Part shown: positions 20,532 through 33,806 of the stretch, piece by piece
How positions within the stretch are numbered: position 1 is the first letter of the stretch
Layout: every line of letters starts with the position of its first letter
DNA from: Salinivirgaceae bacterium
Lineage (GTDB): Bacteria; Bacteroidota; Bacteroidia; Bacteroidales; SZUA-534
Reading direction: 5' to 3'
Assembly (NCBI GenBank): GCA_017557785.1
Contig: JAFYYA010000050.1
Location: forward strand, 78,587 to 142,586
DNA length: 64,000 nucleotides
Notes under the pieces: model-generated
What the model was told of the DNA's origin: nothing
Database searches by the model: none
What the model saw: the letters and a program-made list of their open reading frames with translations, nothing else
Position numbers and translations under genes: made by a program

Positions 20532-22538
20532 ATGAACAAGCGTTTTATATTTGCAATATTACTGTCGGCGGCTGTTGCTCTGCCGGCATTGGCACAAAAG
20601 CCCGACAAGGCTTTCGAAGACATTGTTGCCGGTGTGAAGGCTAAAGACCGTCAGCCCGATGTCGACAACAACATGAACAAGGCGCGCGCCACACTTGAGA
20701 AGATTCTGGCAAAAGACGCCAGCAACGCCATGGCCAACATGGGAATGGCCATTGTCCTGTCGTACGACGCTTACTCGCAGAAAGACTATTTCCGCGGTTG
20801 GCACTATTTTAAGAAAGCCGATGCGGGAATGTCGACATTCACGCCCGATGACAAAAAAGTGCTCGACACGTATTTCACAGCACAGAAACTTGAACGTCGT
20901 GGAAAACCAGTCGACAAGAATATGGAAATTGAGCGTAAAGCAGTGGAAGAGAAGTTGATAAAGTTTGTCCGCGAAGAGAATAATCTGCAATACGCTGAGA
21001 AATTCCTTGAAGAGTTCCCCGACTCGAAGTACTATGCCAATGTGGTTCACATCCGCAACTACATTGAGTTCCGCAAGGCTGAGAATGCCGGTTCGGTTGA
21101 CGCATTCAACTATTTCCTGAACAAGTACCCCGACGCAGCACAAGTGAAAATTGCCACCGACGAGCGTAACGAACTGGCTTACAAACAGACACAGGAAGCC
21201 AATACGTTTGCGGCTTATAAGAACTTTGTCGATAATTATCCCGATGCGGTTCAATATGAAGAAGCCAAGAAGAAATTGGGCATTCTGGCGTTCGACGAAG
21301 CCGCCAAAAAGCACACTCTCGAAGCCATCGAGCAGTTTATGGAACAGTATCCGAACTCGCCCAAAATGCCCGATGCCAAGGTAATGAAGCGCCAACTGCT
21401 GTTTGAGTGGGCAAAATCGGTCAACAGCATCGAAGCATATAACAAATTCGTGTCGCAATATCCTGAAGGTGAGATGTTTATCGATATCTTCAACCTTAAG
21501 TCGGCCGCTTTAGGACAGTCCATTGCTGCCGACCTGCCGATGGAAAACTACAAGGTAATCCGCGGGTTCGACAACAAGCAGGCACGCGACTATGGTGGCG
21601 CAATTGCAACCTACACTGACGGCTCTCTGCTGGTCATTGCAAACACACCATCGCTCAACGATGATATGGACGATGTGTGGATGATTAAACTCGATGCCAC
21701 AGGCAAGATGATTAAGAACGATATTCTTGGCAACGATTTTGACGACCGTGTGAACGCCGCCTACATTGACAAAGCAGGCGCTCTGTTTGCTGCCGGACTC
21801 ACCAACGCCATCAAAAACAATGTGCCTGGCCAGTCGTGGTTCTTCAAGATGAATGCGCAAGGCAAGAATGTATGCAACGCCAAATTTGAAGGCAACGAAG
21901 TGCTGTCGATGGTTGTATACGAAGACGGTCGCTCGCTGCTTGGTGGTTATCTGCAAGCATCTGACACTGCTCTGCCGACACCGCTCATCACCAAACTCAA
22001 CGCTCAGGGCCGCAAACTCTGGACGCGCACCTATGCGCCGGGCAACAAGGTTACATCGCTTGCATCGGACGGCCACGTGTGCAGCATTGCCTTCAACGGC
22101 AGTTGGGTGATGCAGATTGATGAACTTGGCTACATCAAGTGGGATGCAATGGCCGATGAAGGTACCAAACTTTCGGCTGCCGCAATCGCCAACGGAAAGA
22201 CTGTATACACCGGAATCAAAGGCGGGCAGGGCTGTGCCATTGGTTTCGACGGCGCCGGCAAGAAACTCTGGGAAACTGGTTTCGCATTGCCAGCCGACGG
22301 CAGTTTCACTCAAAGTTGCACCATGCCCGACGGCTCTGTTGTGAGCGGCGGAACATTCGGCAACGCTATGGTTCTTGTTAAGATTGACGCCAGCGGCAAA
22401 GTGGTCTTCACAAAAATTTTCGATGGTTCGAAGCAGGTGGCATTCAACGGCTTAGCCGCATCTGCCGCCGACAACTCGGTTTGGGTAAGTGCCACCTACG
22501 CCGATTCCGACATTGTGGTGTTCAAACTGGGACTGTAA
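20532..22538 (+). CDS. Secreted TPR and beta-propeller protein
   Basis: The signal peptide MNKRFIFAILLSAAVALPAL is followed by a mature protein from AQKPDKAF. Residues about 30-330 form helical repeats like TPR/YfiO units, with recurrent blocks of the form F..YP.(A/S)......A. The second half (about 335-668) is a propeller with recurring kinetic blocks such as WMIKLDATGKMI, WFFKMNAQGKNV and LITKLNAQGRKLW, as in PQQ/WD-like propellers. It lies 11 bases after the OmpA/SprB gene and ends at a strong terminator, so these two genes are one unit and may act together at the outer membrane. No enzymatic motif is visible. The specific role is unknown. Confidence 0.8.
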   Translation: MNKRFIFAILLSAAVALPALAQKPDKAFEDIVAGVKAKDRQPDVDNNMNKARATLEKILAKDASNAMANMGMAIVLSYDAYSQKDYFRGWHYFKKADAGMSTFTPDDKKVLDTYFTAQKLERRGKPVDKNMEIERKAVEEKLIKFVREENNLQYAEKFLEEFPDSKYYANVVHIRNYIEFRKAENAGSVDAFNYFLNKYPDAAQVKIATDERNELAYKQTQEANTFAAYKNFVDNYPDAVQYEEAKKKLGILAFDEAAKKHTLEAIEQFMEQYPNSPKMPDAKVMKRQLLFEWAKSVNSIEAYNKFVSQYPEGEMFIDIFNLKSAALGQSIAADLPMENYKVIRGFDNKQARDYGGAIATYTDGSLLVIANTPSLNDDMDDVWMIKLDATGKMIKNDILGNDFDDRVNAAYIDKAGALFAAGLTNAIKNNVPGQSWFFKMNAQGKNVCNAKFEGNEVLSMVVYEDGRSLLGGYLQASDTALPTPLITKLNAQGRKLWTRTYAPGNKVTSLASDGHVCSIAFNGSWVMQIDELGYIKWDAMADEGTKLSAAAIANGKTVYTGIKGGQGCAIGFDGAGKKLWETGFALPADGSFTQSCTMPDGSVVSGGTFGNAMVLVKIDASGKVVFTKIFDGSKQVAFNGLAASAADNSVWVSATYADSDIVVFKLGL

Positions 22539-22573
22539 ATTTTGTTTTCACATAAAATGCGTCTTAGCGCATT

Positions 22574-22606
22574 AAAGGGCTGCCCTTACGAGGGTAGCCT
22601 TTTTTT
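22574..22606 (+). terminator. Rho-independent terminator
   Basis: GGCTGCCCT and AGGGTAGCC form a nine-pair stem with one G-T pair and a four-base loop, followed by seven T. It closes the OmpA-propeller unit. Confidence 0.85.
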
Positions 22607-22648
22607 GTTGTTGCACAAAAAAGGATTTTCAAATTCGCCAAACATTTC

Positions 22649-22656
22649 TACCTTTG
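22649..22656 (+). promoter_or_regulatory. -7 box (TACCTTTG) of the LRR adhesin operon
   Basis: Perfect TAnnTTTG with TTTT 19 bases upstream. Transcription from about 22663 would give a leader of about 100 bases that contains a degenerate palindromic element. Confidence 0.45.
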
Positions 22657-22686
22657 AAAGATTTTGAAAAAAATAACGTACACATT

Positions 22687-22714
22687 GTAGAAACGCGCCC
22701 TGGCACGTCTTTTA
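22687..22714. repeat. Degenerate copy of the GTAGAGACG palindromic element
   Basis: Begins GTAGAAACGCGCC, ends GGCACGTCTTTTA: same outer words as the perfect copy at 29831-29858, with decayed arms. It lies in the leader of the first LRR gene. Confidence 0.5.
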
Positions 22715-22761
22715 TCATGAGCAATTAATAAAACATTAATATTCAACAAAATAATTTTAAT

Positions 22762-24393
22762 ATGAAACGCATTTTGGTTTTATGTTTCGCAGCAATGCTT
22801 GCCATACAGGCATGGGCACAAACAACTTTTGAAATTGATGGTTTGAAATACACAGTAACAAATGAAACAAAACATTATGTTTCAGTTGCCAAAGGCTCAA
22901 CTGAACCAACATGTGATTTAGAAATTCCTAAAACAGTAAGGAGGAATATAATAACATATACAGTTACATGCATTAGTGAATATGCGTTCAAGGACTGCAG
23001 CGGCCTTACTTCGGTAACCATTCCAAAATCGGTTACAAGTATTGGTGAAGGTGCATTTAGCGGTTGTTCATCGTTGGAGTCAATATCATTGCCCTTTGTA
23101 GGTGACAAGCCTCACGAACCAACTGATAATTACCAATATCCATTTGGCTATATATTTGGCACAGAAAGTTATGATGGTGGTACGAAAACAACGCAATATT
23201 ATTATAATTACGACACAAATAGCCCAACGGAAATTGAATATTATATTCCATCATCGCTAAGAGCAGTGACATTAACTGGCGGCAGTTTTATTCCATATCG
23301 TGCATTTTTTTGTTGCCAAGAATTGACATCAGTAACCATTCCAGATGGCACTACAAGTATAGGAGATGGTGCATTCGCAAGTTGCGGTGAATTGGCATCC
23401 GTAAACCTCCCTGTTGGTGTCACAAGCATTGGGGAAGATGCATTCCGGGGGTGTTTTAAAGTATCTGTAACCATTCCCAATGGTGTTGTTAGCATCGGCA
23501 GAAGTGCGTTTTCTTATTGCAATAATTTGACCACCGTAATCATTCCTAATTCTGTTACTAATCTTGGTAAAGGGGTGTTTAGTTATTGCGGAGGATTGAC
23601 TTCGGTAACATTTCCCGATGGAATCACAAGTATTCCTAATGGCACATTTGAAAGATGTGACAATCTCTCATCATTTAACATTCCCAATTCTGTTACCAGC
23701 ATTGGCAATCATGCATTCTATAGAAGTGGTCTGACATCAATAACAATTCCAAGTTCTGTCAATAGCATTGGAAGTGAGACATTTGCATTGTGCTTTTCGT
23801 TGACAGAAATAAATGTTGAGAACGACAATACAAATTTTGCATCAGAAGACGGCGTCTTGTTCAACAAGGATAAAACAATATTGATATGTTGTCCGGCAAG
23901 CAGAACCGGTGCGTATACCGTTCCTAATTCTGTAACTAATATTGGTGAACAAGCATTCGATTGCTGTAATCTTACATCGGTAACTATTTCAGAAAATGTT
24001 AAAACTATCGGTAATTCTGCATTTAATTGGTGTCGCAACCTTACATTGATAACCATTCCTGATGGAGTTACAAACATTGGAGAATTAGCGTTCTATTTGT
24101 GTGAAAACCTTACATCAATAACAATTCCTAATTCTGTTACAAGTATTGGTGGAAATGCATTCGAAGGTTGCGATTTATTAACATTTAATAAATACGATAA
24201 TGCATTATACCTAGGCAATGCTAATAATCCATATCACGCGTTGATAAAAGCAAACAATGAATCCATAACAATATGTGAAATTAATAACAATTGTAAAGTC
24301 ATTGCTGGTGGTTCGTTCTCTGGTTGCGGCAGACTGACTTCAATAACTATTCCTAATTTGGTTAGAAGCATAGGTGAATTTGCATTCGATTGA
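22762..24393 (+). CDS. BspA-like leucine-rich-repeat adhesin, 5' part of an interrupted gene
   Basis: A signal peptide (MKRILVLCFAAMLAIQAWA) is followed by about twenty LRR_5 (Treponema pallidum/BspA type) repeats of about 23 residues with the pattern [17 protein letters not shown] non-LRR block with SEDGVLFNKDKTILICCP is typical of the family. Such proteins are surface adhesins. The frame meets a TGA at 24391-24393 in the middle of a repeat (AFD-stop-CSSLTSV), and the same frame continues open to 26037. Without a sorting domain this 543-residue part could be exported to the periplasm but not attached at the surface. The defect may be a real mutation, a strain-level off state or a sequence error. 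Confidence 0.8.
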   Translation: MKRILVLCFAAMLAIQAWAQTTFEIDGLKYTVTNETKHYVSVAKGSTEPTCDLEIPKTVRRNIITYTVTCISEYAFKDCSGLTSVTIPKSVTSIGEGAFSGCSSLESISLPFVGDKPHEPTDNYQYPFGYIFGTESYDGGTKTTQYYYNYDTNSPTEIEYYIPSSLRAVTLTGGSFIPYRAFFCCQELTSVTIPDGTTSIGDGAFASCGELASVNLPVGVTSIGEDAFRGCFKVSVTIPNGVVSIGRSAFSYCNNLTTVIIPNSVTNLGKGVFSYCGGLTSVTFPDGITSIPNGTFERCDNLSSFNIPNSVTSIGNHAFYRSGLTSITIPSSVNSIGSETFALCFSLTEINVENDNTNFASEDGVLFNKDKTILICCPASRTGAYTVPNSVTNIGEQAFDCCNLTSVTISENVKTIGNSAFNWCRNLTLITIPDGVTNIGELAFYLCENLTSITIPNSVTSIGGNAFEGCDLLTFNKYDNALYLGNANNPYHALIKANNESITICEINNNCKVIAGGSFSGCGRLTSITIPNLVRSIGEFAFD

Positions 24394-26037
24394 TGCAGCA
24401 GTCTAACTTCAGTAACCATCCCTAATTCGGTAACAAGCATTGGCGACTATGCATTTTATGAATGTGGCAGTCTAACTTCAGTAACCATTCCTAATTCGGT
24501 TACAAGCATTGGCAACTTTACGTTCTCTGATTGCAGCAACCTGACTTTTGTGACTATTCCTAATTCAGTTACAGACATTAGCCATGACGCGTTTATACAA
24601 TGCAGCAATGCAACTTTTTATTGTGAAGCGGAATCAAAACCGGAAAACTGGGTGTCAGGTTGGACAAATAGAAATGAAAACTATATAAAATGGGGGTGTA
24701 AGGTGTTGAATTTGGATGTTAATAATACAGAGCACGGTTCAGCAACTGCTGCAGGCTATACGGTTCAAGCAGCAGACGGCTCAATGTGGTACTTAAACAA
24801 TGCACAAGTAACCATGACTGCCACGCCAAACGAAGGTTGCCATGTAATATGGGAAGACAACAGCACTGATAATGTTAGATCTTTCACAGCAACAGAGAGT
24901 AAAACTTATACTGCAACATTTGAAGCACACGTAGAAGAGATTGACGCTGCATATGTTGCAGCAACTTGCACAGAAACAGGCTTAACCGAAGGTAAACGTT
25001 GCTCCGAATGCGGTGCGATTTTAGTGGCTCAAGAAGAAATTCCTGCTTTAGGCCACAACTACGGCACACCAACATACGAGTGGGGTGAAGGCAACTCAAC
25101 ATGCACTGCTACAAAAGTTTGTGCTAATGATAATGAACATGTTGTTACAGAGACAGTTGATGCAACTTCATCTGTAACTGTAGCCGCTACTTGTGAAGCC
25201 GTTGGAACAAGAACCTTCACGGCAGAGTTTACGGATGAAGGTTTTGCTACACAGCAGAAAACTGAAGATATCGCTGCCACTGGCCACACCGCAGGTGAAG
25301 CCGTTGCAGAGAACAACGTTGCGCCAACCTGCACTGTGGCAGGTTCAGTAGATTCAGTGGTTTACTGCACAGTTTGTGAAAGCGAGATAAGCCGTAAGCC
25401 AATAGAAATCCCCGCCACAGGCCACAAAGAAGCAGTGGATGCCGCTGTGGCAGCAACTTGCACCGCAGCAGGCAAAACTGAAGGCAAGCATTGTTCGGTT
25501 TGCTATGCGGAACTTGTTGCACAGGAAGAAATTGCCGCCACCGGCCACAAAGAAGTTGTGGATGCCGCTGTGGCAGCAACCTGTACTGCAGCTGGCAAAA
25601 CCGAAGGCAAGCACTGTGAAGTTTGTAATGCTGTTTTGGTGGCACAAGAAGATATTCCTGCTTTAGGGCATGATTTCAAAACCTACACATTCGACAACAA
25701 CGCCACCACCGAAGCCGATGGCACCGAGACGGCACTGTGTGAGCACGGTTGCGGCACAACCGACACACGTACTGCCGCCGGCACTAAGATTGCCACAACA
25801 CCCGAGAAAGGCACCGCCGTCGCCGAGTCTGCTGCCAACGCCGTTAGCATCTATACACAGAATAATATAATTGTGGTTGAAAACGCCACCGCAGAAATCC
25901 GCATTTATGATGCAATGGGACGTTTGATTGTAGAGACGCCACATTGTGACGTCTCTACGGAAATCCGCATCAACACCGCCGGCGTTTACATTGTAAGGGT
26001 AGGGAATGTGGCAAAACGAGTGATGATAAATAATTAA
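24394..26037 (+). pseudogene. 3' part of the interrupted LRR adhesin, with Cys/His repeats and T9SS sorting domain
   Basis: Same frame as the preceding part, with no further stop. Contents: about four more LRR units; a short beta domain ([20 protein letters not shown]); a series of 38-45-residue modules, each with an ATCTxxG motif, a CxxC pair and a closing GH; and a C-terminal T9SS type A sorting domain ([11 protein letters not shown] ... [19 protein letters not shown]). An internal GTG at 24550 could start a fragment, but that fragment would lack a signal peptide and so not reach the T9SS. The intact ancestor would be about 1091 residues, close in architecture to the next gene. Confidence 0.75.
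25930..25958. repeat. Palindromic element within the first T9SS sorting domain
   Basis: 29 bases: GTAGAGACG at 25930-25938 and CGTCTCTAC at 25950-25958 pair, with CACA/TGTG continuing the stem past one mismatch. Read as protein it gives [10 protein letters not shown] between two strands of the sorting domain. Confidence 0.75.
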
Positions 26038-26059
26038 TAATGAATTAAATATAATTTCT

Positions 26060-29000
26060 ATGAAACGCATTTTAGTATTATGCTTCGCTGCAATGCTTGC
26101 CACACAGGCATGGGCACAAACAACTTTTGAAGTTGGTAACCTGAAATACACTGTTATTGAAGGCACAACCAATGTTTCAGTTACCCAAGGCTCAACAAAG
26201 CCTACCGGTGCTCTCGATATCCCGGACAAAGTAACCAATCCCGACAATAGTGTGGAATATACAGTTACAAGCATTGGCGGCAATGCGTTCAGCAGTTGCA
26301 GCGAACTTACTTCGATAACTATCCCTAACTCTATTAAAAAGATTGGAGAGTCTGCGTTTAATAATTGCAATAGTCTGGCGAAAGTCGAATTTGCTAGCAT
26401 AGAAAGCATATGTGGAATAGAATTTCCAGTATGGGGTAACCCATTATATATAACTCATCATTTATTCATTGATGGAGTGGAAATTACAGAATTGATTATT
26501 CCAAATACTGTAACAACTATTTCAAACTATGCATTTATGGGGTGCAGTGAAATAACATCGGTAAAAATTTCAAATTCTGTAAAAAACATTGGTCAATATG
26601 CTTTTAGGTATTGCGAAAAGTTAGCGACAGTATCCCTTGGCAATGGTGTTACAAGTGTTGATGCGACAGCGTTCGATGAGTGCAGCAACTTGACAAATAT
26701 AAATGTTGATAGCGGTAATTTAGAATTCACATCGGAAGATGGTGTCTTATTTAACTATAATAAAACAAAATTGATATGCTATCCTGCAGGCAAGTCCGGA
26801 AACTATACCACACCTAATTCTGTAACAAGCATCGACGATTTTGCATTCAATCTTTGTAGAAATCTTACAGAAATTAATATTTCCAACTCTGTAATTAGTA
26901 TTGGTTATGAAGCATTTCGTGGTTGTAACGGCTTAACTACATTATCTATTCCTAATTCTGTAACAAGAATTAGTAGTTATGCATTTTTAGGTTGCACAGA
27001 ATTATCATCTATAACAATTCCTAATTCTGTTAAAAGTATAGGTGAACGAGCATTCGAAAACTGTAAAAAATTGGCGAAAGCCGAATTTGCAAGCATAGAA
27101 AGTTTGTGCAGAATATCTTTTGGCGGCTATAATGCAAACCCCTTATCCTATGCCCACAATCTATACATTAATGGAGAAATTGTTACGAGCTTAGCAATTC
27201 CCGAATCTATTACAAGCATTAACAACTACGCATTCTTTGGTTGCAGCGGCCTGACTTCGGTTACCATTCCTAATACCGTTACAACCATTGGCTACTCTGC
27301 ATTCGAAGGTTGCAGCGGACTGACTTCGGTTACCATTCCCGAATCTATTACAAGCATTAACAACTACGCATTCTTTGGTTGCAGCGGACTGACTTCGGTA
27401 ACCATCCCTAATTCGGTTACTAGCATTGGCTACTATGCGTTCGAAGGTTGCAGCGGACTGACTTCGGTTACCATTCCTAATTCGGTTACTAGCATTGGCA
27501 ACTCTGCGTTCGCAGGTTGCACGGGACTAACAAAAGCCGACTTTGCTAGCGTTGAAAGTTTGTGCAGAATAACTTTTAGCAGTGAAGTTGCAAATCCTTT
27601 ATACTATGCTCATAACCTATTCATTAATGGAGAAAATGTTACGAACTTAGCTATTCCCGAATCAGTTACAAGCATCGGTAACTACGCATTCTCTGGTTGC
27701 AGCGGCCTGACTTCGGTTTCCATTCCTAATTCGGTTACAAGCATTGGCAGCAATGCGTTCGATGATTGCACCGGTCTAACTTCGGTAACGATTCCCAATT
27801 CAGTTACAAGCATCGGTGATTATGCGTTCCATGGTTGCATCGGTCTAACTTCGGTAACCATTCCCAATTCGGTTATAAGGATTGGTCGTTTATCGTTTTT
27901 TAATGTAAAAAACATAATATATTCAGGACGAGCTAGAGGAAACCCCTGGGGAGCATTAACTGTCAACGGAATAATTGATGAAGATTTTGTATACATCGAT
28001 GTTGCAAAGACTAGACTTACAGCATATATAGGAGTTGGCGGAGATGTTAATATTCCTGAATCGGTTAAAAGCATTGGCAGCTCTGCATTCAAGGGGTGCA
28101 GCGGCCTGTCTTCAGTTACAATTCCTAATTCTGTCACAAGTATAGGCAACTCTACGTTCTCTGGTTGCAGCGGCCTGACTATGGTTATCATTGGCAATTC
28201 TGTCACAAGCATCGGCGACTACGCGTTCGAAAAATGCAACAGCCTGACAAACATAAATGTGGAAAACGAAAATACATATTACTCTTCAGAAGACGGGGTT
28301 TTATTCAACTATAATAAAACAACACTAATATGTTATCCTGCAGGCAAAACAATGTCTTCTTATAACATTCCTAATTCTGTTACAAGCATTGGTGGCTATG
28401 CGTTCAATGGTTGCAGCGGTCTGATTTCGGTTTCCATCCCTAATTCGGTTACAAATATTGGCGACTATGCGTTCCAGAGTTGCATCGGTCTGACTTCGGT
28501 TTCCATCCCTAATTCGGTTACAAGAATTGGTTCCTATGCGTTTAATGGTTGCAGCGGTCTTACTTTGGTTACCATTCCAAATTCTGTTACAAGCATTGGC
28601 GGCTATGCGTTCTCTGGTTGCAGATGCCTGACTTCTATTACCATTCCAAATTCCATTACCACCATTGGCGGCTATGCGTTCTCTGGTTGCAGCGGCCTTA
28701 TTTCGGTAACCATTCCAAATTCGGTTAAATATATTAACGAATATGCGTTCGCTGATTGCAACAGCTTGACTACGGTAACCATCCCTAATTCAGTTACAAG
28801 CATTAATAGATATGCGTTCTCTGGTTGCGGAAACTTGAATGCTATAGCCTTCGATGGAACAAGCGAACCCACTATAGGAACGGATGCTTTTAAAAATGTT
28901 AGTAGTTTAGTTAAAGTATGTGTTCCGGAAAATTATAGTTCAGATTCTTTTGGTGGATTTAGTGTATATAAAGGACATAATAAAGTAACAGACCAGGCTG

Positions 29001-29824
29001 TTCCACCAACCTGCACAGAAACAGGCTTAACCGAAGGTGTACATTGTGCTAATTGCGGTAGAGTATTTGTCGCACAAGAAGAAGCGGCTGCAGCTTTAGG
29101 CCATAACTACAGCACACCAACATACGAGTGGGGTGAAGGCAACTCAACCTGCACTGCCACAAAAGTTTGTGCAAATGATAATGAGCACGTTGTTACAGAG
29201 ACTGCTGATGCAACTTCAGCGGTAACTGTAGCAGCTACTTGCGAAGCTGTGGGCACAAAAACTTTCACCGCAGAGTTTGCGGATGAAGATTTTGCAACAC
29301 AGCAGACAACTGAAGAGATTGCCGCCACCGGCCACAAAGAAGTAGTTGATGCCGCTGTGGCGGCAACCTGCACCGCAGCAGGCAAAACCGAAGGCAAGCA
29401 CTGTGAAGTTTGCAATGCGGTTTTGGTGGCACAAGCAGAAATACCTGCTTTAGGGCACGATTTCAAAACCTACAAGTTCGACAACAACGCCACCACCGAA
29501 GCCGATGGCACAGAGACGGCATTGTGTGAGCACGGCTGCGGCACAACCGACACCCGCACGGCTGCCGGCACCAAGATTGCCACAACACCCGAAAAAGGCA
29601 CCGCCGTTGCCGAATCGACCGCCAACGCCGTCAGCATCTACACAAGCAACAATATAATTGTGGTTGAGAACGCCACCACAGAAATCCGCGTTTATGATGC
29701 AATGGGCAGAATGATTTGTAGGGACGCGATTAATCGCGTCCGTACGGAAATCCCCGCCAACACCCCCGGCCTTTACATTGTAAGGGTAGGGAACGTGGCA
29801 AAACGGGTGATGATTAATGAATGA
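26060..29824 (+). CDS. BspA-like leucine-rich-repeat adhesin with T9SS sorting domain
   Basis: Intact paralogue (1254 residues) of the interrupted gene, 22 bases downstream and with an almost identical signal peptide. It carries roughly thirty-five LRR_5 units. Three copies of a non-LRR block (A.FASVESLCRITF.., then NGE.VT.LAIPES) and two copies of SEDGVLFNYNKT.LICYPAGK interrupt the LRR array. Towards the end are Cys/His modules ([16 protein letters not shown] and related) and a T9SS type A sorting domain ending [11 protein letters not shown]. The protein should cross the inner membrane by Sec and the outer membrane by T9SS and be fixed to the surface. BspA relatives bind host proteins or other bacteria. 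The ligand here is unknown. Confidence 0.9.
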   Translation: MKRILVLCFAAMLATQAWAQTTFEVGNLKYTVIEGTTNVSVTQGSTKPTGALDIPDKVTNPDNSVEYTVTSIGGNAFSSCSELTSITIPNSIKKIGESAFNNCNSLAKVEFASIESICGIEFPVWGNPLYITHHLFIDGVEITELIIPNTVTTISNYAFMGCSEITSVKISNSVKNIGQYAFRYCEKLATVSLGNGVTSVDATAFDECSNLTNINVDSGNLEFTSEDGVLFNYNKTKLICYPAGKSGNYTTPNSVTSIDDFAFNLCRNLTEINISNSVISIGYEAFRGCNGLTTLSIPNSVTRISSYAFLGCTELSSITIPNSVKSIGERAFENCKKLAKAEFASIESLCRISFGGYNANPLSYAHNLYINGEIVTSLAIPESITSINNYAFFGCSGLTSVTIPNTVTTIGYSAFEGCSGLTSVTIPESITSINNYAFFGCSGLTSVTIPNSVTSIGYYAFEGCSGLTSVTIPNSVTSIGNSAFAGCTGLTKADFASVESLCRITFSSEVANPLYYAHNLFINGENVTNLAIPESVTSIGNYAFSGCSGLTSVSIPNSVTSIGSNAFDDCTGLTSVTIPNSVTSIGDYAFHGCIGLTSVTIPNSVIRIGRLSFFNVKNIIYSGRARGNPWGALTVNGIIDEDFVYIDVAKTRLTAYIGVGGDVNIPESVKSIGSSAFKGCSGLSSVTIPNSVTSIGNSTFSGCSGLTMVIIGNSVTSIGDYAFEKCNSLTNINVENENTYYSSEDGVLFNYNKTTLICYPAGKTMSSYNIPNSVTSIGGYAFNGCSGLISVSIPNSVTNIGDYAFQSCIGLTSVSIPNSVTRIGSYAFNGCSGLTLVTIPNSVTSIGGYAFSGCRCLTSITIPNSITTIGGYAFSGCSGLISVTIPNSVKYINEYAFADCNSLTTVTIPNSVTSINRYAFSGCGNLNAIAFDGTSEPTIGTDAFKNVSSLVKVCVPENYSSDSFGGFSVYKGHNKVTDQAVPPTCTETGLTEGVHCANCGRVFVAQEEAAAALGHNYSTPTYEWGEGNSTCTATKVCANDNEHVVTETADATSAVTVAATCEAVGTKTFTAEFADEDFATQQTTEEIAATGHKEVVDAAVAATCTAAGKTEGKHCEVCNAVLVAQAEIPALGHDFKTYKFDNNATTEADGTETALCEHGCGTTDTRTAAGTKIATTPEKGTAVAESTANAVSIYTSNNIIVVENATTEIRVYDAMGRMICRDAINRVRTEIPANTPGLYIVRVGNVAKRVMINE
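27197..27412 (+). repeat. 138-base near-perfect internal duplication in the LRR array
   Basis: A 78-base block at 27197-27274 recurs at 27335-27412 with only a few changes. The period of 138 bases equals two LRR units, so this is a recent two-unit duplication. Adjacent units are also close copies at DNA level. Confidence 0.75.
29718..29745. repeat. Palindromic element within the second T9SS sorting domain
   Basis: 28 bases starting GTAGGGACGCGATT and ending AATCGCGTCCGTAC, arms pairing over 13 of 14 positions. It occupies the same place as the copy at 25930-25958 in the paralogue but has a different core and is read in a different frame (CRDAINRVRT). Confidence 0.75.
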
Positions 29825-29830
29825 TATCAT

Positions 29831-29858
29831 GTAGAGACGCAATGCATTGCGTCTCTAC
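29831..29858. repeat. Perfect copy of the palindromic element
   Basis: 28-base perfect palindrome with outer arms GTAGAGACG and CGTCTCTAC and centre AATGCATT, seven bases after the stop of the LRR adhesin. Confidence 0.8.
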
Positions 29859-29881
29859 AAAAAATGAATAAAAAATTGCTT

Positions 29882-29908
29882 GGGGTGAAGAAATATTCAC
29901 CCCTTTGC
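29882..29908 (+). terminator. Rho-independent terminator of the LRR operon
   Basis: GGGGTGAA (29882-29889) and TTCACCCC (29896-29903) form a perfect eight-pair stem with a six-base loop and a T-rich tail. Confidence 0.8.
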
Positions 29909-30175
29909 TTTTATATGCGCCACCGTGCAAAACACATTACGTAATCTACGCATGCCTTGTGCAAACGTTAAACTATACTATTGGGGCGGTTTTGCAACTG
30001 ACAATTATCAGTTTCCGAAAATTGATTTTCTGTAACCGCTTTAGCAAATAAATACGTAACTTTGCGCAACTTTTCTGGGAAAAGTGTGTAATACTTTTAA
30101 GGTAAAAACTTAATTCTTTAAAGTGTTAGAAACGAGATTCAACGAAATAATTGTAATTCTATAAAAAATAAAACG
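29909..30175 (+). promoter_or_regulatory. Control region of the glycogen operon
   Basis: This gene-free stretch holds a perfect -7 box TAACTTTG at 30057-30064 without a good -33 element at the usual distance. A hairpin follows just downstream: ACTTTTC, loop TGG, GAAAAGT (30069-30085). After it comes an A/T-rich leader of about 90 bases up to the ATG at 30176. The hairpin would lie at the 5' end of the transcript and could stabilise the message. No known riboswitch is recognised, and nothing else stands out between 29909 and 30050. Confidence 0.45.
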
Positions 30176-32494
30176 ATGGGATATTTAGAGTTTGACAAAA
30201 CAGAACTTGTAAATCTTGAGAATTCCTTGACCAAAGAAGTGTTGCGGACCAACCGTGCGGGTGCGTACTCGCTTACAACCCTGATTGGCTGCAACAACCG
30301 TAAGTATCACGGAATGTTGGTGTGCCCGCTGCCGCAGGTCGATGGTGGCCGCCACGTGTTGCTTTCTTCGCTCGACGAGACTATTATTCAGCACGAACGC
30401 GAGTTCAATCTGGCTTTGCATAAATATGAGGGTGACAACTATGAGCCGAAAGGTCACAAGTATGTTACCGAATTCTATACCAACCCGATACCGACACTCA
30501 TTTACGGTGTTGGCGGCGTTGTTCTGAAAAAAGAGAAAATCCTTGTCAAGAGTGAGCCGCGAATCCTTGTCCGCTACACTCTGCTCGACGCTCACAGCGA
30601 GACTAAAATCCGCTTCAAACCGTTCCTTGCTTTCCGCAACATTCACGCTTTGAGCAAGGCCAACCTTGATGCCAACACCAAGGTGAAGATGGTTGACAAC
30701 GGCATTTCGTCGTGTATGTATCAGGGCTATCCCGACCTTTATATCCAAACTTCGAAGAAGTGCGAGTTTGTTTCGGCACCCGACTGGTACTACAACATTG
30801 AGTACATTCTGGAGCAGAAGCGTGGCTACGATTTCAAAGAGGATTTGTTCGTGCCCGGATATTTCGAGGCGCCAATCAAGAAGGGCGAGAGCATTATTGT
30901 TTCGGCCGGATTGAGCGAGATTAAGCCTAACACGCTGAAGAAGAAATTCGACGACGAGGTTAGCGACCGCACACCGCGCAACAGTTTCGAGAACTGCCTG
31001 ATAAACGGTGCAGCGCAGTTGTTCCTGAACGAGGGCAAGGAAACCCGCATTCTGGCTGGTTTCCCGTGGTATCCGGCTCGCACACGCGACGCGCTTATCG
31101 CCCTGCCGAACCTGCTCTACAAGAACGAGACCCCGATGATTTACAAGAGCGTTCTCTCAACGCTCATTAGTCAGATAATCAACACCTTGACAAGCGGAAG
31201 CACCAATCTTGACGATTATGCCGACTGCCGTTCCGACGTTCCGATGTGGCTTGTTTGGTGCATTCAGCAAATCGACAAGCAATATCCGCAATATGACGTC
31301 TGGAAGGAATACGGAAAAGACGTTAAAAAGGTGATGAACAGCTATTTGGAGCACAAAATCAGTTTCCGTATCGACGAGAACGGAATGGTTTACAACACTT
31401 CGGATGCTGTGGCCAACACTTGGATGAACTCAACCATTCACGGCCGTCCGGTTCTGCCGCGCAACGGTTATGCTGTCGAGACTAACGCATTGTGGTACAA
31501 CGCAATAATGTACGTTCTCGAGAAGAGCAAAGGCGACAAGACCTTTGGTAAGAAATGGGTTGAGTTGGCCGAAAAACTGAAAAATAGTTTCGTTGCCACA
31601 TTCTGGAACGATGAGCGCGGCTATCTGGCTGACTATGTTACTTATGACTATGCAAACACGCAAGTTCGTCCGAACCAATTGCTGGCTTGCGCAGTTGACT
31701 ATACAATGCTCGACAAGCACCAAATCAAAGCCGTGTTGCGTGTGGTTGAGGAGCAACTGATGACCGCTTACGGTATCCGTTCGCTTTCACCCGATGATCC
31801 GCGCTATGTATCGCACTACCGTGGCACCGAAGAACAGCGTGAGAACGCAGCCTTCAACGGCTCGGTTTGGCCGTGGCTTTACGCTGCATATATCGACGCT
31901 TTGGCGAAAATCCAACCGCGTATGGTTGAATCGTCGGTCAACAAGTTCCTTGAGACCTTCGAGCCTGAAATGAGAACTGCCGGTATCAGTTGCTTGTCGG
32001 AGATGTACCACGGCGACCCACCGTATCACGGAAAGGGTGCCATTTCGTTCGCATTGAGTTTTGCAGCATTGCTTTATATGACTAGACTGTCGAAATCTTT
32101 TGCTGGCGAGACAGAGGTTGAGGCCAAAGCCGTGAAGAAATCGGTGAAAGCCACCGCAAAAGCCGACAAGAAAGAACCGAAAAAGGCAGAAGCAAAGAAG
32201 GAAGTGAAGAAGGCAGAGCCGAAGAAAGCCACTGCAAAGAAGGAAGTGAAGAAAGCAGAACCGAAGAAGGCTACTGCAACGAAAGAAGTGAAGAAGGCTG
32301 AACCGAAGAAAGCCGCAGCAAAGAAGGAAGTGAAGAAGGCAGAGCCGAAGAAAGCCGCTGCAAAGAAAGAAGTGAAGAAGGCAGAACCGAAAAAGGCTGC
32401 AGCAAAGAAGGAAGTGAAGAAAGCGGAGCCGAAAAAGGCGGCACCAAAAGCAGCGGCAAAGAAACCGGCCAAAGCGGCAACGAAAAAGAAATAA
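30176..32494 (+). CDS. Glycogen debranching enzyme (GH133-type) with Lys/Ala/Pro repeat tail
   Basis: Bacterial-type amylo-alpha-1,6-glucosidase. The N-terminal domain (about residues 15-235) begins with TNRAGAYSLTTLIGCNNRKYHGML, a hallmark of the GDE N-domain. The C-terminal (alpha/alpha)6 catalytic domain spans about 270-645, with GFPWYPARTRDALIALP, VETNALWYNA and RPNQLLA segments. It removes alpha-1,6 branches from glycogen or dextrins. Homologues normally end near here. Residues about 650-772 form an added low-complexity tail with six tandem copies of KKEVKKAEPKKATA, resembling histone H1-type tails. The tail is strongly basic and probably disordered. This is the first gene of a four-gene operon with spacers of 19-22 bases. 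Confidence 0.92.
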   Translation: MGYLEFDKTELVNLENSLTKEVLRTNRAGAYSLTTLIGCNNRKYHGMLVCPLPQVDGGRHVLLSSLDETIIQHEREFNLALHKYEGDNYEPKGHKYVTEFYTNPIPTLIYGVGGVVLKKEKILVKSEPRILVRYTLLDAHSETKIRFKPFLAFRNIHALSKANLDANTKVKMVDNGISSCMYQGYPDLYIQTSKKCEFVSAPDWYYNIEYILEQKRGYDFKEDLFVPGYFEAPIKKGESIIVSAGLSEIKPNTLKKKFDDEVSDRTPRNSFENCLINGAAQLFLNEGKETRILAGFPWYPARTRDALIALPNLLYKNETPMIYKSVLSTLISQIINTLTSGSTNLDDYADCRSDVPMWLVWCIQQIDKQYPQYDVWKEYGKDVKKVMNSYLEHKISFRIDENGMVYNTSDAVANTWMNSTIHGRPVLPRNGYAVETNALWYNAIMYVLEKSKGDKTFGKKWVELAEKLKNSFVATFWNDERGYLADYVTYDYANTQVRPNQLLACAVDYTMLDKHQIKAVLRVVEEQLMTAYGIRSLSPDDPRYVSHYRGTEEQRENAAFNGSVWPWLYAAYIDALAKIQPRMVESSVNKFLETFEPEMRTAGISCLSEMYHGDPPYHGKGAISFALSFAALLYMTRLSKSFAGETEVEAKAVKKSVKATAKADKKEPKKAEAKKEVKKAEPKKATAKKEVKKAEPKKATATKEVKKAEPKKAAAKKEVKKAEPKKAAAKKEVKKAEPKKAAAKKEVKKAEPKKAAPKAAAKKPAKAATKKK
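32195..32446 (+). repeat. Six tandem 42-base repeats encoding a 14-residue basic unit
   Basis: Six units of 42 bases, each encoding KKEVKKAEPKKA plus two small residues (residues 674-757 of the debranching enzyme). Copies differ mainly at AAA/AAG and GCA/GCT wobble positions, so the protein unit is better conserved than the DNA. Confidence 0.85.
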
Positions 32495-32516
32495 AGAACA
32501 ATAAAAATAACTGATA

Positions 32517-33806
32517 ATGAAAGTCTTAATGTTTGGGTGGGAGTTTCCGCCGCACATATCCGGAGGTTTGGGCACCGCTTGCTACGGCCTGACTAAAGGA
32601 ATGTCGAAGATTGAGGACCTTGAGGTAACTTTCGTTGTGCCAAAGGCTTACGGCGATGAGGATCAAGAGGCTATCAAACTTGTGGGTGCGGGAAACATAC
32701 CATTGCGATTCACAAAATCGGAGAGTTTCTCGGGTCAAATCAAGAATCTTCAGTACATTGAGGTAGGTTCGAATCTGGTTCCGTACTCAACGCCCGAAGA
32801 ATTCTACTCGCTGAAGAACGACCGTCGGTACAGTGGCAAGCACATTGTTGAAGTGGGAGAGTCGGGCTGTATTCCGTTCACCGGAAAATACGGCGACAAT
32901 CTGTTCACCGAAATCTACTATTACAGCCTGATTGCGGAGCAGATTGCCACAATGTACGATTTCGACATTATCCACGCACACGACTGGCTGGCTTACCCGG
33001 CTGGAATGGCGGCCAAACGCGTATCGGGCAAACCGCTTGTTGTGCACGTTCACGCCACCGATTTCGACCGTAGCGGCGGCAGCGTGAATCCGGCAGTCTA
33101 CAATATCGAAAAGGCCGGTCTCGACGCAGCCGACAAGGCAATCACCGTGAGCAACCTGACCCGCGATATCGTTATCAACAAATATGGTCAGTCGCCTGAC
33201 AAGGTTGAGACCGTTTACAACGCCGTTGAGCCTAACCTGAAGGCAGTCGACCGTCAGAAGAAAGGTTTCGACGAGAAGGTTGTGACGTTCCTTGGCCGTA
33301 TCACAATGCAGAAGGGTCCTGAATTCTTTATTGAGGCCGCCTACAAGGTTCTCAAGAAGATGGACAACGTGCGCTTTGTGATGGCCGGCAGCGGCGATAT
33401 GATGAACAAGATGATTGAACGTGCTGCAAGTCTGGGAATTATGGACAAGTTCCACTTCACAGGCTTCCTTCGCGGCGACGCTGTGTTCCGTATGTTCAAC
33501 TACAGCGACGTTTACATAATGCCTTCAGTATCAGAGCCTTTCGGTATCTCGCCACTTGAGGCTATGCAATCGGGCGTGCCTGTAATCATTTCGAAGCAGT
33601 CGGGTGTGAGCGAGATTCTGAAACACGCCATCAAGATTGACTTCTGGGACATCGACAAAATGGCAAACGCAATTTACGCGCTGCTCAACTATCCGTCGCT
33701 TGCGAAAACAATCGGCGAAAACGGCTTGAAAGAGGCCAACAGCCTGCGCTGGGAGGAATCGGCAAAGCACGTTTACAATATCTATAAATCAGTATTAAAT
33801 AAGTAA
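32517..33806 (+). CDS. GT4-family glycosyltransferase of the glycogen operon
   Basis: A GT-B fold retaining glycosyltransferase of 429 residues. The N-terminal domain starts KVLMFGWEFPPHISGGLGTA, the glycine loop that binds the acceptor/nucleotide. The C-terminal domain has VTFLGRITMQKGPEFFIEA and the E-x7-E sugar-nucleotide motif in SEPFGISPLEAMQ. Homologues sit beside GH57 enzymes in many Bacteroidetes and other bacteria and take part in alpha-glucan synthesis. Whether this one uses ADP- or UDP-glucose cannot be read from sequence. It lies 22 bases after the debranching gene and 19 bases before the GH57 gene. Confidence 0.9.
   Translation: MKVLMFGWEFPPHISGGLGTACYGLTKGMSKIEDLEVTFVVPKAYGDEDQEAIKLVGAGNIPLRFTKSESFSGQIKNLQYIEVGSNLVPYSTPEEFYSLKNDRRYSGKHIVEVGESGCIPFTGKYGDNLFTEIYYYSLIAEQIATMYDFDIIHAHDWLAYPAGMAAKRVSGKPLVVHVHATDFDRSGGSVNPAVYNIEKAGLDAADKAITVSNLTRDIVINKYGQSPDKVETVYNAVEPNLKAVDRQKKGFDEKVVTFLGRITMQKGPEFFIEAAYKVLKKMDNVRFVMAGSGDMMNKMIERAASLGIMDKFHFTGFLRGDAVFRMFNYSDVYIMPSVSEPFGISPLEAMQSGVPVIISKQSGVSEILKHAIKIDFWDIDKMANAIYALLNYPSLAKTIGENGLKEANSLRWEESAKHVYNIYKSVLNK

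Follow-up and report, generated by a model that had tools for sequence, protein, structure and literature searches.

Palindromes in two tandem adhesin genes

We analysed a stretch of 64,000 nucleotides from a Salinivirgaceae bacterium (assembly GCA_017557785.1, contig JAFYYA010000050.1, positions 78,587 to 142,586; hereafter the window), in which two neighbouring genes for leucine-rich repeat (LRR) adhesins each carry a short palindrome, translated in place, inside the C-terminal sorting domain of the type IX secretion system (T9SS). We identify the palindrome as a repetitive extragenic palindrome (REP), and we detected it at one site of most of the sorting domains sampled from the genus. The elements, sorting domains and adhesin genes described for the window lie on the forward strand. 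The second gene (26060..29824) is intact and encodes a BspA-type LRR adhesin of 1254 aa (PF13306, 1.6e-211). The first is broken by an in-frame TAG at 24391-24393 into an LRR part (22762..24393), which terminates at this codon, and a C-terminal part with the sorting domain (24550..26037) in the identical frame; the TAG is either a real mutation or an assembly error. The original prediction of two tandem LRR adhesins, made from the window alone, therefore stands for the second gene, while the first is not one open frame.

Both genes end in a T9SS type A sorting domain. That of adhesin 1 (25792..26031) matched PF18962 only weakly, with an E-value of 0.0065, below the cut-off of that family; that of adhesin 2 (29579..29821) matched TIGR04183 (1.9e-05) and gave a seven-strand immunoglobulin-like model, with no Pfam sorting-domain match among those listed. 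Element 1 (25930..25958), a double-foot REP of 29 nt with the structure GTAGAGACG-CCACATTGTGA-CGTCTCTAC and an 11-nt core, CCACATTGTGA, encodes 10 residues of the first domain. Element 2 (29718..29745), of the GTAGGGACG type, has 28 nt (GTAGGGACG-CGATTAATCG-CGTCCGTAC, 10-nt core CGATTAATCG, right arm one base off a perfect palindrome) and encodes CRDAINRVRT of the second domain, in the context RMI-CRDAINRVRT-EIPA, with one extra T directly before the element. The coding copies begin 9 nt (element 1) and 10 nt (element 2) beyond the Gly codon of YDAMG, and both fill 29 nt up to a common GAA-ATC, the 28-nt copy together with its extra T. Element 3 (29831..29858), a perfect double-foot REP with the core CAATGCATTG, lies six bases past the stop codon of adhesin 2. 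A palindrome at one shared site of both type A sorting domains, a reading one base out of register with the downstream frame preserved, and a third, perfect copy after the second gene had all been predicted, and all were confirmed from the sequence at these coordinates. When the window was shuffled 100 times with its dinucleotide composition kept, the palindrome pattern had no match.

A fixed site in the sorting domain

The domain set comprised 172 sorting domains: 23 rows from the genome of the window (G000; 3.0 Mb, 153 contigs, 94% complete) and 149 parsed (150 fetched) of 321 matches in congeners, taken from the top of a profile-search ranking. The element was scored as present when no more than 2 of the 14 arm positions mismatched and as decayed at 3-4 mismatches; this fuzzy arm match replaced an earlier palindrome score, too strict for the G-type elements described below. 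We detected the element at the hairpin between strands 4 and 5 (s4-s5) in 147 of the 172 domains, 141 of them at the identical site, with decayed copies in 13 and none in 12 (17, 0 and 6, respectively, of the 23 domains in G000), and these occupancy figures are upper bounds because the search profile was rich in the element (17/23 rows) and only the high-scoring part was sampled. Counted from the Gly codon, the 147 elements start at 10 nt (127 domains), 9 nt (14) and 13 or 19 nt (6). The window copies are therefore not the two special insertions originally supposed, but members of a widely occupied site.

Outside the genus, one of 27 parsed domains (L095) has the element at 2 mismatches; two others reach 4, which is taken as chance. 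The filled domain L095 belongs to a sister genus that also has an empty domain, L083, in which the sequence next to the site is similar. At L039 (G000:C39:4401-4547) the left half of a sorting domain stops at the palindrome, in unrelated sequence, which looks like a rearrangement at that point.

The reading frame follows a simple rule. Cores of 10 nt are read in one frame in 130/130 sorting domains and cores of 11 nt in the other in 14/14, the remaining three having other lengths. The register shift between the two window copies therefore follows the parity of core length. A third frame would read TAG, which leaves two open frames.

Occupation usually adds no length: the span from YD.MG to G.Y.V is 31 residues in 108 of the 147 occupied and in 10 of the 12 empty domains, and relatives with and without the element (L210 against L214 or L263) differ by block substitution. 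A span of 39 residues was found in 11 occupied domains, 8 of which read VA(E/K)SG(I/V)R.E behind the element, resembling VAAEAGRTEI of empty domains. These longer domains look as if they retain the old loop behind the element, which fits an insertion that was later trimmed, the presumed order of events. We also asked whether palindrome-free domains have the same residues, which would reduce the palindrome to protein homology: they share the length and often the R..RTE flanks, but not the core residues, and the claim of a DNA element survives in this qualified form.

TIGR04183 matches all 23 of the 23 own rows at E<=0.01, and a structural model of the second window domain (mean predicted local distance difference test score 83) has the seven-strand immunoglobulin-like fold of type A sorting domains. 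Strands occupy residues 45-49 and 53-59, and the element encodes residues 47-56; in this model, part of s4 and part of s5 come from the arms, and the turn comes from the core. The insert was originally thought to be tolerated in a loop between strands. The usual absence of added length and the placement of the arms within s4 and s5 in the model do not agree with an insert in the loop alone. A Foldseek search with the model gave no match at E<=0.001; the RgpB C-terminal domain 5ag8 came second (E 5.8e-3, root-mean-square deviation (rmsd) 1.8 over 67 columns) behind a T-cell receptor-CD3 chain with a worse fit (rmsd 5.4), and further T9SS C-terminal domains ranked below. Another search returned the T9SS entries 7pq4, 5hfs, 5ag9 and 5ag8; its best-scoring matches were repeat proteins and were disregarded. 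The window domain thus resembles that of RgpB in its TIGR04183 membership, its seven strands and its fit to 5ag8, and the s4-s5 loop of RgpB is described as highly curved in the available part of its structural report (PMC4804311). It differs from other type A sorting domains in that its s4-s5 hairpin is REP-encoded. The peptide is a tolerated s4-turn-s5 hairpin, and we claim no function for the peptide itself.

The REP family and its transposase

The palindrome is dispersed in the genome of the window. We detected 42 perfect palindromes in G000, with none for a reversed-pattern control, and 58+63 matches to a looser pattern, again with 0 in the control, so that the outer words lie far above chance, as the original prediction required. 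The own-genome loci examined contain 78 elements at the looser pattern, 15 in sorting domains and 63 elsewhere; 18 of these 63 lie inside open reading frames of at least 150 aa (on either strand, some perhaps not real genes) and 45 outside. The looser pattern also occurs in each of the 10 congeners, with 24-65 matches per strand (control 0 or 1), and was found outside the genus in 12 of 29 genomes, mostly in few copies each. The 27 named loci of related sorting domains comprise 20 from Salinivirgaceae metagenome-assembled genomes, 5 from uncultured Bacteroidetes, 1 from Bacteroidia and 1 from Bacteroidales; the stated sources of the Salinivirgaceae genomes are rumen, other forestomach and abomasum.

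Two arm types were distinguished. A-type elements have the form GTAGAGACG-core-CGTCTCTAC, the whole being palindromic except for the core, and G-type elements the form GTAGGGACG-core-CGTCCG, with a single foot. The CGTCCG tail follows in 23 of the 23 own-genome elements that start with GTAGGGACG, and among 251 unique elements an A-type left arm is paired with the TC tail in 118/136 and a G-type left arm with the CG tail in 108/115. The size of 28-29 nt fits the short (20-40 nt) dispersed palindromes of subclass 2.4 REPs, and a 5' GT[AG]G foot with its 3' reverse complement is present in the A-type, the 115 G-type elements being one-footed. On these sequence features we classify the palindromes as double-foot, GTAG-footed REP elements. 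Outside sorting domains, where the copies have weak flanking preferences only, the palindrome can also be translated: as VETRRATSLR within an MmeI-like restriction-modification protein (L129, G000:C79:6887; PF20473, 1.6e-87), and as VETQCNASLQ in a frame of 567-584 aa that has no Pfam match at E<=0.01 (L132, G000:C89:40654). Downstream of the sorting domain at L070, L207, L216, L222 and L230 lies a different palindrome whose foot is similar, GTAGGGGCGAAT...ATTCGCCCC; it may represent one more REP family, with different arms.

REPs are associated with TnpA_REP proteins, the REP-associated tyrosine transposases (RAYTs). A search of G000 with PF01797 gave no match, and the absence of any RAYT that this suggested was overturned by reading the frames around element copies outside the sorting domains. 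At C38 we detected a protein of 229 aa that carries HuH and Y motifs, and the element is translated in the stretch separating the two. Its match to NF047646 (REP-associated tyrosine transposase) has an E-value of 7.5e-14 and does not reach the curated threshold, and PF01797 is matched only weakly (E 0.0015). A second own RAYT copy is located at C10. Of 19 genomes, 15 have relatives of the C38 type; besides G000, these include 8 of the 10 congeners. The relatives in G001 are weak, and G003 has one fragment and one weak match. We examined 15 RAYT loci of the genus, leaving out the weak L375, L388 and L390 and matches without a locus, and the exact element lies inside the gene in 13 of them. The REP peptides translated there (for example, LDVARNVST) are like those of the sorting domains.

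A different RAYT type with the signature Y---Q--HH, which is that of TnpA_REP subclass 1.2 in the available text of PMC6006769, accounts for 16 PF01797 matches in congeners, one or two per congener. These RAYTs were rejected as cognates, the element being present at 0 of the 13 loci examined (about 0.3-1.6 kb each side), and the difference from 13/15 gives a Fisher p of 2.8e-6, the true weight of which is lower because several loci are orthologous. Some of them (L143-L152, L080-L082) are located among quite different palindromes (AACCCCGAAGGGGT and others).

For TnpA_REP subclass 2.4 (RAYT group 4), the accessible part of Quentin et al. (2018; PMC6006769) describes double-foot REPs together with in-frame REPs in tnpA_REP between HuH and Y. 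Judged by motif and without a formal tree, the C38-type RAYTs resemble this subclass, the motifs fitting only in part. The subclass is marked by NH[IFV]H and YIxNNP motifs with a variable insert separating them; by eye the C38-type proteins read NHIH, NHVH or NHLH (NHTH in L365-367 and L383), and YIEHNP, YIEQNP or YIANNP, also YIENNV, YIETNV and YIEGNV. The C38-type RAYT is the likely mobiliser of the palindromes, as the presence of the element inside its gene suggests.

The cores in or beside RAYT genes are CGATTTATCG/CGATTCATCG, CGGCGTGCCA/TCGCGTGCGG, TCACATTGTGG, TTGCGTGCAA/TTGCGCGCAA, TGGCGCGCCG and TGCCATGGCG. Seven main cores, with at least 10 copies each, make up 108 of the 147 sorting-domain elements. 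Three of them equal cores of RAYT loci (CGATTCATCG at L383, CGGCGCGCCA in the L376 flank and TTGCGCGCAA in the L378 flank), and three are similar to such cores (CGATTAATCG, TGGCGTGCCG and CCACATTGTGA).

Different cores at corresponding sites

Corresponding sites of different species often carry different REP versions. Element 3 of the window and its counterpart L276 in G003 have the cores CAATGCATTG and TGCCATGGCG, with 19/20 bases identical on the left and 40/40 on the right. The pair L216/L222 is a similarly clean swap, the neighbouring 30 nt being identical at 30/30 on one side and 27/30 on the other. In the orthologous domains L197/L249 (89% identity across 372 nt downstream), neither arm type nor core nor frame agrees. 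Different elements also distinguish L194/L200, domains that are close relatives but may be paralogues, given their diverged downstream sequences. L168/L250 differ by a short tract that runs from the element into the flank.

Close cross-species pairs, defined by downstream identity of at least 85% over at least 150 nt and left identity of at least 80%, numbered 23. Both members have the element in 20 of them, with different cores in 10, the same core in 9 and near cores in 1, and the other 3 involve empty domains. The 10 differing pairs share members and form about five independent groups; the clean pair L216/L222 does not pass this filter. Among the copies after stop codons, two pairs are exactly reverse-complemented between species (L031/L262 and L017/L055), and L238/L247, L032/L161 and L023/L188 differ less cleanly; same-locus pairs among the copies outside sorting domains were overlaps of neighbouring elements and were excluded. 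An exchange of cores, one of the two possibilities originally raised, is supported by these loci, with 10 of 20 pairs differing and two swaps confined to the element.

Explanation and rivals

We consider it probable (about 0.75) that REPs were fixed at the s4-s5 hairpin, spread with the adhesin genes and were later replaced in place by versions with other cores. The palindromes would be dispersed, non-autonomous double-foot hairpins served by RAYT (TnpA_REP) proteins. One REP would have become fixed long ago at this hairpin of a type A sorting domain in the rumen genus, presumably by a single founding insertion, and would have spread by duplication of the sorting domains and of the adhesin genes that carry them. 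Afterwards, REPs with different cores, several of which equal or resemble those of RAYT loci, would have replaced each other at sorting-domain and post-stop sites, probably by copying from other elements, as the common core set suggests, and selection would retain versions with an open frame and the correct hairpin length.

Several observations weigh against this reading. Occupancy is overestimated by the element-rich profile and the top-ranked sample (149/321). An exact element is missing from the RAYT gene at L362 and from the fragment L370, and of 10 RAYT loci outside the genus the element is inside 2, within 300 bp of 3 more and neither inside nor near in 5. G006 and G009 have elements but no C38-type RAYT at E<=0.001 (G006 is 82% complete), and G001 has weak matches only. 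The sorting-domain core CAACGCCTTG has no counterpart at the RAYT loci examined. In the pairs L046/L057 and L017/L055, sequences past the gene agree at 99%, whereas next to the element only 20-23/30 nt (67-77%) do, and the exchanged tract is therefore wider than the element. Other cross-genome pairs outside sorting domains mostly have the same or nearly the same core, the short match L026/L268 being an exception. On a flank tree of 138 domains the core class changes 62 times, against an average of 76 and a minimum of 71 in shuffles, and core inheritance is therefore present but weak (the alignment is short). No movement or cleavage of the elements was observed.

The strongest rival, to which we give somewhat less than an even chance, holds that homologous gene conversion, or duplication of domains, among the paralogous sorting domains and their 3' ends accounts for all exchange, with the elements as passengers and the RAYT taking no present part. 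Paralogue flanks are mostly 65-85% alike, the L168/L250 tract and the diverged flanks of L046/L057 and L017/L055 suggest tracts wider than the element, and the 3' sites have common flanking sequence in many paralogues. Against it, the difference between element 3 and L276 lies inside the element between nearly identical neighbours, L216/L222 is almost as clean, and many cores are found at RAYT loci and in intergenic sequence as well. In the preferred reading, too, ordinary gene conversion between paralogues is the most likely route of exchange inside sorting domains, since several swaps extend into the flanks. The title of a 1988 review reportedly proposed gene conversion of REPs already. The two element-confined swaps may have arisen through a RAYT that cut and joined at the feet, through template switching at the hairpin or through a conversion tract of very short length. 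In the portion of the TnpA_REP literature available, the protein is described as cleaving between C and T beside REPs in vitro, and the 3' foot of our elements contains CT, the dinucleotide cleaved.

A role in nucleic acid is rather unlikely as the main reason for retention. Here the palindrome would be kept as a 3' mRNA hairpin (stabiliser, attenuator or terminator), with core changes tolerated as long as pairing is kept. The hairpins are strong (z -3.9 to -7.3 in five folds; element 2 was folded as 29717-29744, one base early, which did not affect the stem), and Rfam at gathering scores gave no match in window positions 22000-33000. A copy at most 150 nt past the stop codon was detected in 42 of the 172 sorting-domain genes (30/42 at 20-29 nt; 40/42 A-type), and TTTT follows within 12 nt in 28 of the 42, directly adjoining in 6; the 3' copies are hence partly terminator-like, and for them a role at transcript ends is quite possible. 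Their surroundings are alike among many paralogues, yet they have 23 canonical cores. For the coding copies, the limited common set of cores (7 types in 108/147) does not look like compensatory drift, and 13 decayed copies persist. For the 3' copies little counts against this role; they may also serve mRNA as hairpins, which is compatible with the REP reading.

Independent RAYT insertions at one site of many sorting domains, through a target-site preference instead of one ancestral insertion, seem unlikely. The many different cores at a single site, the filled and empty domains of the sister genus (L095 and L083) and, in the available text of PMC3733652, different REPs at about one recB site in two Xanthomonas species would agree with such insertions. 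They fit poorly with the exact nucleotide common to 141 of the 147 elements, with the weak flanking preferences of copies elsewhere and with the mostly equal length of filled and empty loops.

A bolder reading is that REP sites, once occupied, serve as cassettes for exchange. A RAYT would cut both feet of a single-stranded hairpin and join in another, and rival RAYT lineages would swap cores at fixed places, including the export signal. We regard this as speculative and quite unlikely; if it were true, a cassette swap would rewrite a surface-targeting hairpin without a change of frame or length.

Protein homology alone, with no DNA element, is suggested by the equal loop length and R..RTE ends of empty domains and is practically dismissed by the two reading frames, by the copies in RAYT and MmeI-like genes and by non-coding copies with the same DNA, which already refute it.

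Downstream of the adhesin genes, the protein encoded at 30176-32494 has a tandemly repeated C-terminal tail rich in Lys, Ala, Glu and Pro (KKAEPKKA repeats), at about 32100-32490 of the window.

Relation to known systems and biological meaning

The elements share with subclass 2.4 REPs, as far as the accessible part of PMC6006769 describes them, the 5' GTAG and 3' CTAC feet around a hairpin, the REPs inside the RAYT gene with an unbroken frame and the occurrence in Bacteroidetes, subclass 2.4 being known from Bacteroidetes and Cyanobacteria. They differ in their main coding host, a family of sorting domains occupied at one fixed site, where several kinds of core interchange. The GTAG-/CGTC-tagged REPs of Di Nocera et al. 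(2013; PMC3733652) are, in the available text, similarly short palindromes with paired copies, copies past stop codons and in-frame intragenic copies, including the recB case; that text mentions no family-wide occupation of one protein domain.

The original prediction compared the palindromes to the Rickettsia palindromic elements (RPEs), which, in the published portions available, are likewise palindromes translated in place in many proteins. This likeness did not hold further: RPEs have hosts of many unrelated kinds and a terminal CGTC tag (noted for the RPE-4 and RPE-6 repeats in the accessible text of PMC3733652), whereas the elements described here are REPs with GTAG/CTAC termini, CGTC inside the stem and a RAYT as their probable cognate. 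REPs within genes, also within those of RAYTs, are already published, as are different REPs at roughly the same recB site. In the literature on REPs and T9SS, as far as it was covered, we found no report of a genus-wide occupied sorting domain or of swapped cores at corresponding sites.

REPs are treated as extragenic, and here a domain required for export regularly harbours them throughout a genus. Corresponding sites with different REP versions between species provide a readable record of REP turnover, and the natural translated variants can be used to ask how far the T9SS s4-s5 hairpin can vary. These sites also offer a test bed for a possible in-place exchange of hairpins by RAYTs.

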